A stretch of 64,000 nt of DNA from Elusimicrobiota bacterium (GTDB lineage Bacteria > Elusimicrobiota > Elusimicrobia > 2-02-FULL-39-32), in assembly GCA_021730935.1 (NCBI GenBank), contig JAKFYJ010000018.1:1-64000 (forward strand). The letters are read 5' to 3'. Under the pieces are notes generated by a model. It was not told where the DNA came from, made no database searches, and saw only the letters and a program-made list of their open reading frames with translations. The position numbers and the translations under genes were made by a program. Shown here one piece after another: positions 6,706-23,735 of the stretch (position 1 is the stretch's first letter; each line of letters begins with the position of its first letter).

Positions 6706-6712
6706 GGAACGG

Positions 6713-7059
6713 TGGAGGTGGCGGGAATTGAACCCGCGTCCGAAAACGCGACCGTCAAGCCACTACAAGCTTAGCCTGGTATTGATCTCGCCGCGGGGTT
6801 GTCACCAGACAGAACCACCCAACGACAAGCCCGACTGTTGTTTCACCAAAATGCCGCCAGGCGGAGCATTTACGGCTAACCTGCTGTCGACATTCGACCC
6901 CAAATAGCAGGTGTCAATGGGCGAATGTCACTGCGGTTTAGGCAGCGAGCGCCAGTTCTTCGTTGGCGTTTCTATTGGGTCGATTTTTACGGAGCCTTCG
7001 ACCAACTCCGGCTTGCGGCTGTGGCGTTCAAACGTCTCCGTCGAAGCCATTTCACCCCC
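6713..7059 (-). ncRNA. ssrA: tmRNA
   Basis: 5' GGGGGTGAAATGGCTTCGACGG and 3' GGACGCGGGTTCAATTCCCGCCACCTCCA on minus strand, G3:U in acceptor; tag ORF ends ...ANEELALAA* (stop at 6938-6940). Confidence 0.95.
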
Positions 7060-10328: not shown

Positions 10329-10400
10329 CGGGGCATGGCGAAGTGGCATCGCGCTCGGTTCGGGACCGAGAGGCCGTGGGTTCAAATCCCACTGCCCCGA
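10329..10400 (+). tRNA. tRNA-Pro(CGG)
   Basis: Acceptor CGGGGCA/TGCCCCG, anticodon arm CTCGG-TTCGGGA-CCGAG, T arm GTGGGTTCAAATCCCAC. Confidence 0.92.
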
Positions 10401-12839: not shown

Positions 12840-13373
12840 TTAAATATCCTTATCCTTGACCGCTTTATCGGGCTTGGAACGCCTTTGAGAAACGATAATT
12901 TTATGAAGCGCAAATCGTATGGGGTGAGGAAGTTTGAGATTCAACCCATCGGATTCGATCTCGATTGTGTCTTCGGTAATGAAATTGAGAAACCGCAAGC
13001 TCTGGGCATTGATCGAAAGCTGTGGGATTTTTATGGGTTCGTCGGTGCCTTTGCCCTTTTCGGGGACCAGGAATTCAACGATCAACAGCGGATGTTCCAG
13101 ACGAATGTATCCTTTTGAACCTTTGAAGCCGACGATAAATCCAAGGTCCTTGAGCAGTTCTGGGATATCAGTTTTTCCCCGTATTTTAGAGGGAGAAGCA
13201 ATAAGAAAATCTATGTCTCTTGTTTTTAAAGCGGGCAGGTGAGCGTCATCAGTAAAATATTCTTTATAAAACGGAAGGCACCAACTGCCGATTAAAATCA
13301 GCTGATTGAGAACGCCGGCCGCGTTTAACCTTTTTAAGACCTCGAGGCAAAGATCATATTGACTCTTTTCCAC
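12840..13373 (-). CDS. nucleotidyltransferase-like protein
   Basis: LILIGSWCLPFYKEYF...LKTRDIDFLIASPSK: GSxx and DxD-like pattern of polbeta-type NTases. Confidence 0.65.
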   Translation of the reverse strand: MEKSQYDLCLEVLKRLNAAGVLNQLILIGSWCLPFYKEYFTDDAHLPALKTRDIDFLIASPSKIRGKTDIPELLKDLGFIVGFKGSKGYIRLEHPLLIVEFLVPEKGKGTDEPIKIPQLSINAQSLRFLNFITEDTIEIESDGLNLKLPHPIRFALHKIIVSQRRSKPDKAVKDKDI

Positions 13374-13671
13374 GCAAACTGCTCCTTAAGAATTTGACCT
13401 GCCTTTTTACCTGGGACAAAAGCTTTCTGTATTTCGCTCTGAATATTTTGGCTTTGCCATACTTCTCAAGATCTTCTTTCGAAGCCTGCCCTTTGTATAT
13501 GAATTTGACCTTGCCGTTGTCTCTCATAACCACATAATAATATTCGTGGCCTTTTATTCGCTTTTTAACGAGGCTGCCTTTCGGCAATTTCGATAACTCC
13601 CGTTCGTAATCCTTTTGAAGATGAAGAGAGTTATCTAACTCCTCTTTCAGAACGCCTTTTATTGGCCCCAC
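13354..13671 (-). CDS. small basic protein partner of the nucleotidyltransferase
   Basis: GTG start at 13671 preceded by GAGGAG; overlaps NTase gene start; track's TTG start lies inside an operator-like repeat. Confidence 0.55.
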   Translation of the reverse strand: MGPIKGVLKEELDNSLHLQKDYERELSKLPKGSLVKKRIKGHEYYYVVMRDNGKVKFIYKGQASKEDLEKYGKAKIFRAKYRKLLSQVKRQVKFLRSSLRGKESI

Positions 13672-13686
13672 TGTTTGCTCCTCATA

Positions 13687-13791
13687 GTTACCATACAAAA
13701 TATACTATATTATAGTCCGTATGGTAACTATTTTCAAGGGTTGAAACAAGTTACCATACATACTATTTAACTTATATTATTGTATGGTAAC
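13687..13791. repeat. operator-like array: GTTACCATAC/GTATGGTAAC inverted repeats (4 copies)
   Basis: Copies at 13687-13696, 13719-13728, 13750-13759, 13782-13791, alternating orientation. Confidence 0.85.
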
Positions 13792-13803: not shown

Positions 13804-14226
13804 TTAACCGATCTTAAGAAAGATGAGACCCGCCATCACGAGGGCGGCGCCCAAGGCTTTGCGGATTGTGAGGGATTCGTGCATGAAGAGGATTCCGACG
13901 ATGAAGGTGATGACGGGATAACTGCCGGCGACCAAAACCATTTTGGAGATTTCCCCCGATTTGAGTGCACGATAAAAGAAAGTTTGGCCCAGGATGCTGG
14001 CCAGGAATCCGCCGCAGATTAAAAATAGGGCAGAACGGAGTTCCACAGATTTGACTTGTTCGGGCTTGACGAAAAAAACGCCAAGAATCACCATGCCGAT
14101 CATGACGCCGATACAGCGATAAAAAAGACCCGCCATGGGTTCGGCTTTGGAAAGTCCCGCCTTCTCGAGCAATGGAGCAAATCCCCACATCGATGCGGCC
14201 AGAACTGCCCACCAGAATGCGGTCAT
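13804..14226 (-). CDS. EamA-family transporter (single EamA domain)
   Basis: 140-aa four-TM protein, FLICGGFLASILGQTFFYRALKSGEISKMVLVAGSYPV; GGAGG upstream of ATG. Confidence 0.85.
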   Translation of the reverse strand: MTAFWWAVLAASMWGFAPLLEKAGLSKAEPMAGLFYRCIGVMIGMVILGVFFVKPEQVKSVELRSALFLICGGFLASILGQTFFYRALKSGEISKMVLVAGSYPVITFIVGILFMHESLTIRKALGAALVMAGLIFLKIG

Positions 14227-14237
14227 GCCAGCCTCCA

Positions 14238-14374
14238 GCCAGACCCACAGATGTTTTTCATTTTATCGAAAACACGCTCGCCGAGTGCGGGCTCGCTTGG
14301 ATCTCGCGAAAGCGTATGCCAGTCTTTCGCTCGATACAGTTTTCAATAAAATAAAAAACACCTGTGGGTCTGGC
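14238..14374 (-). ncRNA. putative structured leader RNA or miniature inverted-repeat element
   Basis: 36-nt arms 14238-14273 and 14339-14374, 33/36 complementary with the 3 exceptions G:U on minus strand; inner GCGAAAG/CTTTCGC stem. Confidence 0.6.
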
Positions 14375-14409: not shown

Positions 14410-15675
14410 TTAACTGTGGCGGTTGCCGGGGCGGTGGTGAGAGCGGGAACCGGAATATCCGTGGCCGCCGTGACCGTGGCCCTGAGGATGAGAGGATTTG
14501 GGCGCGGGGCGGTCATACTGAAAATTGGGAAGCGTCACGCGGGGCAAGGGTTTCTTGATGGTGCGCTCGATGCTCCGGATCATGTCTTCTTCGCTTCTGT
14601 CGACGAGGCTGAATGCGTCGCCTGTGGCGTCGGCTCTGGCGGTGCGTCCGATGCGGTGAACATAATCTTCCGGAGTCATGGGGATGTCATAATTGATGAC
14701 ATGGCTGACATCCGACACATCGATGCCGCGGGCGGCGATGTCTGTTGCGACCAAAACCTGGCTGTGGCCGGCCTTGAAATGTTCAAGGGCCTGTTCCCGC
14801 TGGCTTTGGCTTCTGTCGCCATGGAGGACGGAAACTTTAAATCCTTTCATTTTGAGCGCGCTGGTGAGCTTATCAGCCAAACGCTTGGTCCGGGTGAAAA
14901 CAATGACGGAAGTGGCGTCTGCCGCACGGAGAAGCTCTTCGAGGAGCTCGGTTTTTAAGTGGCGAGGGCAAGGATAAACGGCGTGACGGATGCCTGCGGC
15001 CACTCCCGAGCGCTGTCCAATCTGAATGGTGACGGGATCGGTGAGCATTTCGTGAACGAGCTTTTGAATCTCGGGCGGAAGCGTCGCTGAGAAAACAAGG
15101 TTTTGCCTTTTGGGAGGCAATAGACTGATGATCCGTTTGATGTCCGGCAAGAATCCCATGTCCAGCATGCGGTCCACTTCATCCAACACTAAAATCTGCA
15201 GATCGCGGAAATCGATGCGTCCGCTCCACACATGGTCCAGAAGCCGGCCCGGAGTGGCGGAGATGATATCCAAACCTTTCATGAGAGCGGCAATCTGAGG
15301 GTGCATGGCCACGCCGCCATAAATCGCGGTGCCTTTTAAGGGAACATGTTTAGACAAAGAGTTTAAATGCTCGATGGACTGAGCGGCGATTTCACGGGTC
15401 GGAGACAAAATCAGGGCGCGGACATTGCGGGTTTTGCCGGATTCGAGCAGGCGGTGAAGGATCGGCAGAACGAAAGCGGCGGTTTTGCCTGTGCCTGTTT
15501 GAGCGCATCCAATCACATTGCGGCCCGCCATGATGGGAGGGATCGCTTTGGCCTGGATCGGAGTGGGGCGGATAAAACCTAAATCGTGAATCCCTTTCAG
15601 GATCTTGGGGTCGAGCCCCAACGTTTCAAATGTTATGCCTTCGTTTTCGCCTTCAACGGCAATGGGATGAGTCAT
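14410..15675 (-). CDS. DEAD-box RNA helicase (RhlE-like)
   Basis: AQTGTGKTAAF, LDEVDRML (DEVD variant), SATLP, HRIGRTARA. Confidence 0.95.
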   Translation of the reverse strand: MTHPIAVEGENEGITFETLGLDPKILKGIHDLGFIRPTPIQAKAIPPIMAGRNVIGCAQTGTGKTAAFVLPILHRLLESGKTRNVRALILSPTREIAAQSIEHLNSLSKHVPLKGTAIYGGVAMHPQIAALMKGLDIISATPGRLLDHVWSGRIDFRDLQILVLDEVDRMLDMGFLPDIKRIISLLPPKRQNLVFSATLPPEIQKLVHEMLTDPVTIQIGQRSGVAAGIRHAVYPCPRHLKTELLEELLRAADATSVIVFTRTKRLADKLTSALKMKGFKVSVLHGDRSQSQREQALEHFKAGHSQVLVATDIAARGIDVSDVSHVINYDIPMTPEDYVHRIGRTARADATGDAFSLVDRSEEDMIRSIERTIKKPLPRVTLPNFQYDRPAPKSSHPQGHGHGGHGYSGSRSHHRPGNRHS

Positions 15676-15693: not shown

Positions 15694-16773
15694 ATGTTAT
15701 CGATGAAAACCGAAGTAATACTTTTATTTCCTTTTGACTTGGGCCTCGAGCTCGACTTTTCCAAACGCCAAATTAAAGAGATCGTGCACTCGGTTTCCGT
15801 CGAAGAATTGTCCGAGATGGCGTTTGAAGAACGCGCCTTTGACGATGTCAGAGCGGAGTTCAGGTTATACCGTTTCGGCGTGGGCATGATCCGCGTGGGG
15901 TTCACCATTGACGACACTCCTGACGGTTTGGCCGCCATCGCCTGCCAGGCGGAAAGTCTCAATATCGGCGGAGATCCCATTCTTTTGTGGTGCCAAAACA
16001 GAGTGCAGGAACTCATCGACAAAGCACAGGAATTTGCAACGCACCGCTATGACCAGAGGCTCCTTGAGACGGAAATTTTCCCCGTTTTTATTTTCGGGCA
16101 GAAAGACGTCAAGAAATCCGACCATTTCATCCGCGAGCATTATAAAGCGCTTTACGGCATCGCGGCAGGTGAAGCGCAGTTCGACCGCCTCTCGGATTTC
16201 GTGTTTCAGCGCGACCCTCTCGCCAATTTCGGATATTACGAAAACGAACTCATCCTGGTGAAACGCTTCGGCGCCGCCATTTCCTCGTCGGAGTCCGGGA
16301 CGGTTTTGGATTTAATTTCTTTGATTTATGCGCAATATTGGAGCCTGAAAGCCTATGACTTTGTGCTGAACGCGGAAGTGGACGGCGCCCAGAAACTGCT
16401 GCAAGACCTGCCTCCTTATTATAAATTTTGGCAAATTCCCTCAAAGTACCAGACCTTTTCGAAAGAGGCGATTGATTTCGGGAAAGACAAACTTTCCATC
16501 GTGGAATCGCTCTATAGCGTCTCGACCAACCTTCCTGCCGTCGAGAACGACTGGCATTTGCGGATGATTTATAACAGCCTCACGAAAGTTTTCAACACGG
16601 AAGAAATGTATAAGACCATCGAGATCAAGCTGGACCGCATCGAGGAATCCTATAATGAAGCGCGCGAATTTTTGTCCACAAACTTTTTCATCCTCCTCGA
16701 TTTCGTTTTCTTCGCCTGGCTCATCTGGGGCGTGATCGACACCTTCCTCCTGCTGGCCATCGCAAAAAAATAA
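15694..16773 (+). CDS. uncharacterised protein with C-terminal membrane anchor
   Basis: 359 aa, long soluble N-terminus, C-terminal hydrophobic [26 protein letters not shown]; loosely RMD1/DUF155-like architecture. Confidence 0.55.
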
Positions 16774-23645: not shown

Positions 23646-23728
23646 ATCTTCGGTAACCAGACGATCCCTCCCCCAAGGGACTCACGGCTTTGCGTGTCTG
23701 CGATTACTCGCTGACTTGCCTTTTTCGG
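23646..23728 (-). ncRNA. GEMM-I (cyclic di-GMP-I) riboswitch
   Basis: Minus strand GGCAA-GTC-A-GCGA-GTAA-TCGC-A-GAC-ACGCAAA-GCC (GNRA tetraloop) ... GTCCCT/AGGGAT ... GGTTACCG. Confidence 0.9.
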
Positions 23729-23735
23729 ATGCTTT

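Follow-up and report, generated by a model that had tools for sequence, protein, structure and literature searches.

A dispersed hairpin insertion in an Elusimicrobiota genome whose locus-specific arms are apparently copied from the neighbouring DNA

The long hairpin upstream of a predicted EamA gene in an Elusimicrobiota genome is one of ten scattered insertions of a small DNA element. The folded tip of this element is nearly constant, whereas its stem differs at every site, apparently because each insertion copies the adjacent DNA backwards to build its own stem. The copy was found in the first 64,000 nucleotides of contig JAKFYJ010000018.1 (assembly GCA_021730935.1), hereafter the window. 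The first-pass annotation had described an inverted repeat with arms at 14238-14273 and 14339-14374, paired at 33 of 36 positions, with three exceptions that become G:U pairs only in a minus-strand transcript and a 65-nt loop with its own stem, and had read it as either a new cis-regulatory RNA of the EamA gene or a miniature inverted-repeat element captured as a leader. The observation is confirmed. An inverted-repeat search returned the same 36-nt arms, 92% complementary and 65 nt apart, and the three non-Watson-Crick positions are all G.T on the minus strand. The minus-strand RNA folds at -78.7 kcal/mol, compared with -42.3 +/- 4.0 for shuffled sequences (z = -9.1; 0 of 200 as good). The inner stem, GCGAAAG...CTTTCGC, is present as part of a two-hairpin tip. 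One correction is that the arms are specific to the locus, while the tip is the repeated part. The features of this copy, read on the minus strand, are as follows:

14238..14374 (-), the whole element copy: 5' arm, two-hairpin core and 3' arm
14340..14374 (-), 5' arm, 35 nt, unique to this locus and containing a T-run; predicted to be the original sequence downstream of the DEAD-box helicase gene
14273..14339 (-), conserved core, 67 nt (67-69 nt in the ten copies)
14298..14338 (-), core hairpin 1, GCGAAAG...CTTTCGC with a GA/GA internal loop
14276..14296 (-), core hairpin 2, GCGAGCC...GGCGAGC, the best conserved part across the class
14238..14272 (-), 3' arm, 35 nt, predicted inverted copy of the 5' arm, with 32 Watson-Crick and 3 G.T pairs
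14232..14236 (-), Shine-Dalgarno-like GGAGG of the downstream ORF, just outside the element; the helix ends one base before it
13804..14226 (-), downstream ORF, EamA-like according to the first-pass annotation
14410..15675 (-), upstream ORF that reads as a DEAD-box helicase from sequence motifs, ending 36 nt before the 5' arm

To test if the hairpin is repeated, the 71-nt tip was used to search the genome. Ten strong copies were found on eight contigs, 92-100% identical to the query. A loose core pattern returned nothing in viral and genome collections, and the core is absent from 60 relatives at BLAST level. Every copy is flanked by complementary arms of 29-53 nt, but the arms differ from copy to copy. 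The mean pairwise identity of the left arms is high up to about 12 nt from the core, where a T-run lies, and about 0.3-0.5 beyond that. Apart from their own partners, the arms match nothing else in the genome beyond shuffled controls, a result that also gives no support to the arms being guides or captured foreign sequence. The copies lie mostly between genes, often by a stop codon, and next to unrelated genes in both orientations. At three copies (L003, L004 and L007; L numbers denote loci and G numbers genomes) the core is antisense to both neighbours, and at L005 and L008 an ORF reads through the element.

These data do not support a riboswitch or attenuator of the EamA ORF, which we consider very unlikely. 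The position just before the Shine-Dalgarno sequence and the stable fold in the sense strand favour such an RNA, but the same tip lies beside unrelated genes, and no Rfam family matches the element in the window or in the other copies. Elsewhere in the window, Rfam hits include a c-di-GMP-I riboswitch aptamer above the gathering score (23649-23730, minus), a tmRNA (6710-7059, minus) and a tRNA (10329-10400, plus). Repeated inverted copies of GTTACCATAC at 13684-13766, upstream of a small ORF pair (13354-13698 and 12840-13373, minus), look operator-like. The interpretation in the first-pass annotation is thus partly supported: the alternative of a captured miniature inverted-repeat element is closer, as the hairpin is a dispersed insertion, although it is not a MITE in the defining sense.

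Long hairpins are otherwise rare in this genome. A survey of 2.49 of the 2.71 Mb found 35 inverted repeats, and most of the long ones enclose structured tips. Besides the family described above (F1), there are at least two more core families with the same anatomy, F2 with nine copies and F3 with two, as well as pairs or singles that may represent further families (F4-F6). Possible members of F4 and F5 have long complementary arms around tips of about 135-211 nt (L099 4188-4464, L148 11207-11478, L119 19799-19996 and L184 13687-13885). The arms of F2 and F3 also differ between copies, except that the F2 copies L126 and L131 share arms with matched changes, so arms can also be inherited or evolve in concert. 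We asked if the core might insert into loops of pre-existing long hairpins such as terminators, given that copies cluster near gene ends. Very few other hairpins in the 2.49 Mb are as long, and empty F3 sites have no long hairpin, making this explanation very unlikely.

Covariance models place F2 in 49 of 235 genomes of the class (E <= 0.01) and in none of the other sampled genomes of the phylum (E <= 1e-4). Relatives of F1 occur in six further class members; in some of these the arms look conserved between copies (G165, G014), while the single copy in G007 has a long arm of its own. Congeners carrying F2 include the Elusimicrobia MAGs RIFCSPLOWO2_01_FULL_60_11 and 54_10, and in a sister MAG an F2 element lies in frame inside a polysaccharide-deacetylase-like ORF (L255 1826-1912). 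The core structure is supported by strong covariation: both sides have changed in 23 of 25 pairs for F1 and 15 of 29 pairs for F2, above all slid controls and all shuffles (0 of 500 as high), although the alignments were fitted to the models, which leans towards the structure. A sister-species family, TCGATTCGCAAGCAG, looked like the same element but has conserved arms. Copies of a hairpin family with conserved arms (ATCCCACCACCTGC...GCAGGTGGTGGGAT), separate from the element described here, were seen in G001 and G002 (L084-L095), several at stop/start junctions.

Comparison with two congeners, about 71% identical in DNA, shows that F1 is inserted. Four F1 sites (L002, L004, L006 and L007) align across with only 2-36 nt between the flanks, except for one 64-nt case holding another hairpin. 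The intergenic sequence is too diverged in these genomes to say which arm is original. The short spacers at first favoured a full insertion with target-site duplication, a reading we dropped for F3 after comparing paralogous genes.

The F3 copies L208 and L194 lie at the same position in paralogous genes, and other paralogs lack the element. The left arm of L208 aligns with the empty paralog L119 (score 12, 0 of 500 shuffles as high), whereas its right arm does not (400 of 500). For L194 the corresponding counts are 2 and 135 of 500. In F3, therefore, the 5' arm is the original sequence and the insert is the core plus an inverted copy of that arm. This direct evidence rests mainly on L119, as L149 is a truncated copy of the same insertion and the empty paralog L126 is too different to be informative, showing no similarity to either arm. 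Another paralog of the F3 host genes, L121, carries a different short hairpin at the same position (16188-16264), as if the site were a hot spot.

The ends of neighbouring genes point in the same direction for F1 and F2. Stop codons of long left-hand ORFs lie 6-21 nt inside the left arms (L002, 21; L127, 18; L170, 16; L173, 9; L006, 7; L010, 7; L009, 6), whereas right-hand ORFs reach only 1-8 nt in convincing cases. The exception is L131, where a putative ORF ends 17 nt inside the right arm, which would contradict the direction if it is a real gene. In several right-hand cases the few bases also match the left side, as microhomology at a rejoining point would. For the window copy neither neighbour reaches the arms, and its direction is inferred by analogy.

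The strand-specific G:U pattern is real and general. Over F1-F3, arm mismatches on the core strand are 28 G.T and 2 A.C (naive binomial p = 9e-7, pooled), with 14:0 in F1 and 12:2 in F2; the orientation of F2 is arbitrary but fixed by its core, so its test is two-sided (p = 0.013). The bias follows the core strand whatever the direction of the neighbouring genes, and is thus not evidence for regulation of EamA. It could be left by wobble-prone copying of one arm from the other, or by selection or repair acting on the folded core strand.

Based on these observations, we suggest, with moderate confidence, that the hairpin is a copy of a short non-autonomous dispersed element that builds its stem by fold-back copying of target flank. 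In this view, the 67-69-nt core would go in next to a T-run on the same strand, its folded 3' end would act as a primer and copy 30-50 nt of upstream flank (X) into an inverted copy (X'), and the new strand would rejoin the downstream flank at a few bases of matching sequence, giving X-core-X' with a stem unique to each site. The analysis itself establishes the dispersed conserved core, the unique complementary arms, the covarying core structure, the species-specific insertion and, for F3, that X is native and X' the extra piece. That F1, including the window copy, works like F3, that copying is part of the insertion reaction, that rejoining occurs by microhomology, and that the intermediate is single-stranded RNA or DNA are our inferences. 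No partner enzyme was identified: this genome contains one RT-like ORF, a 316-residue protein that is its only PF00078 match (L133 10246-11196, minus), and no Y1 transposase at E <= 1e-6, with no convincing link to the element, and no RT hit was obtained in the incomplete congeners G001 and G002, which carry F2.

An alternative is that the core inserts plainly and the stem is added later by ordinary replication template switching at the strong hairpin, which makes and later corrects the palindrome. Template switching is known to create and maintain hairpins (PMC8794818), and the matched changes in the arms of the F2 copies L126 and L131, together with the F3 arms of L208, which stay paired although the site has diverged from L149, are consistent with it. 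However, all ten F1 copies, identified by core similarity alone, already have long arms although their cores are 92-100% identical, and no bare core was found. We therefore regard later template switching as possible but less likely. A more far-reaching reading, which we hold only tentatively, is a previously undescribed insertion reaction in Elusimicrobiota, in which a folded core is joined to a target 3' end, primes its own extension on the target strand and leaves the core plus an inverted copy of target DNA, with several unrelated cores using the same reaction.

Dispersed hairpin repeats are usually recognised by conserved ends. Here the ends appear to be made from the target, so repeat finders keyed to terminal repeats would miss them, and a compensated, wobble-rich stem that looks like a selected RNA helix can arise by copying. 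These results caution against reading G:U strand bias as proof of RNA function, and point to an unidentified fold-back insertion activity.

No known family fits the element, and a literature search, which left out most subscription papers and all preprints, found no paper on flank-derived arms of this sort. Like prokaryotic MITEs (PMC10969869), it is short, non-coding, dispersed, mostly intergenic, hairpin-forming and without its own enzyme. However, its terminal repeats are not shared between copies, conservation is in the centre, and there is no consistent target-site duplication: TTAA- or TTAT-like repeats are shared at both ends of seven of the ten copies, with none evident at the window copy, and may be microhomology. 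No ends like those of the element, as a parent transposon would carry, were found elsewhere in the genome. A conventional MITE whose arms diverged after insertion is very unlikely, despite its dispersal, the TTAA or TTAT repeats and the conserved-arm hairpin family in sister species, because the nearly identical cores have unalignable outer arms, genes reach deep into left arms, and the F3 left arm matches an empty paralog. REP/RAYT-associated palindromes (PMC3733652, PMC2817692) are also dispersed and structured, but REPs are described as 20-40-bp palindromes, whereas here a two-hairpin core sits on a 29-53-bp locus-specific stem, and the Y1 transposase, present in 131 of 235 class members, had no hit in this genome. 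Repetitive hairpin-forming elements of mitochondria (PMC2800124) are likewise dispersed in intergenic regions, but they are mitochondrial, and we saw no report of flank-derived arms for them. Rickettsia palindromic elements (described in PMC10969869) are palindromic, about 150 bp long and can sit in frame within genes, as F3 and the F2 copy in L255 do; here the stem is locus-specific, there is no evidence of a conserved encoded peptide, the two F3 copies are read in different frames, and the window copy is intergenic. Template-switch mutations that create hairpins (PMC8794818) similarly yield a reverse-complement copy of local sequence and a perfect stem, whereas in the element described here the copy is, in our interpretation, coupled to insertion of a conserved dispersed core.
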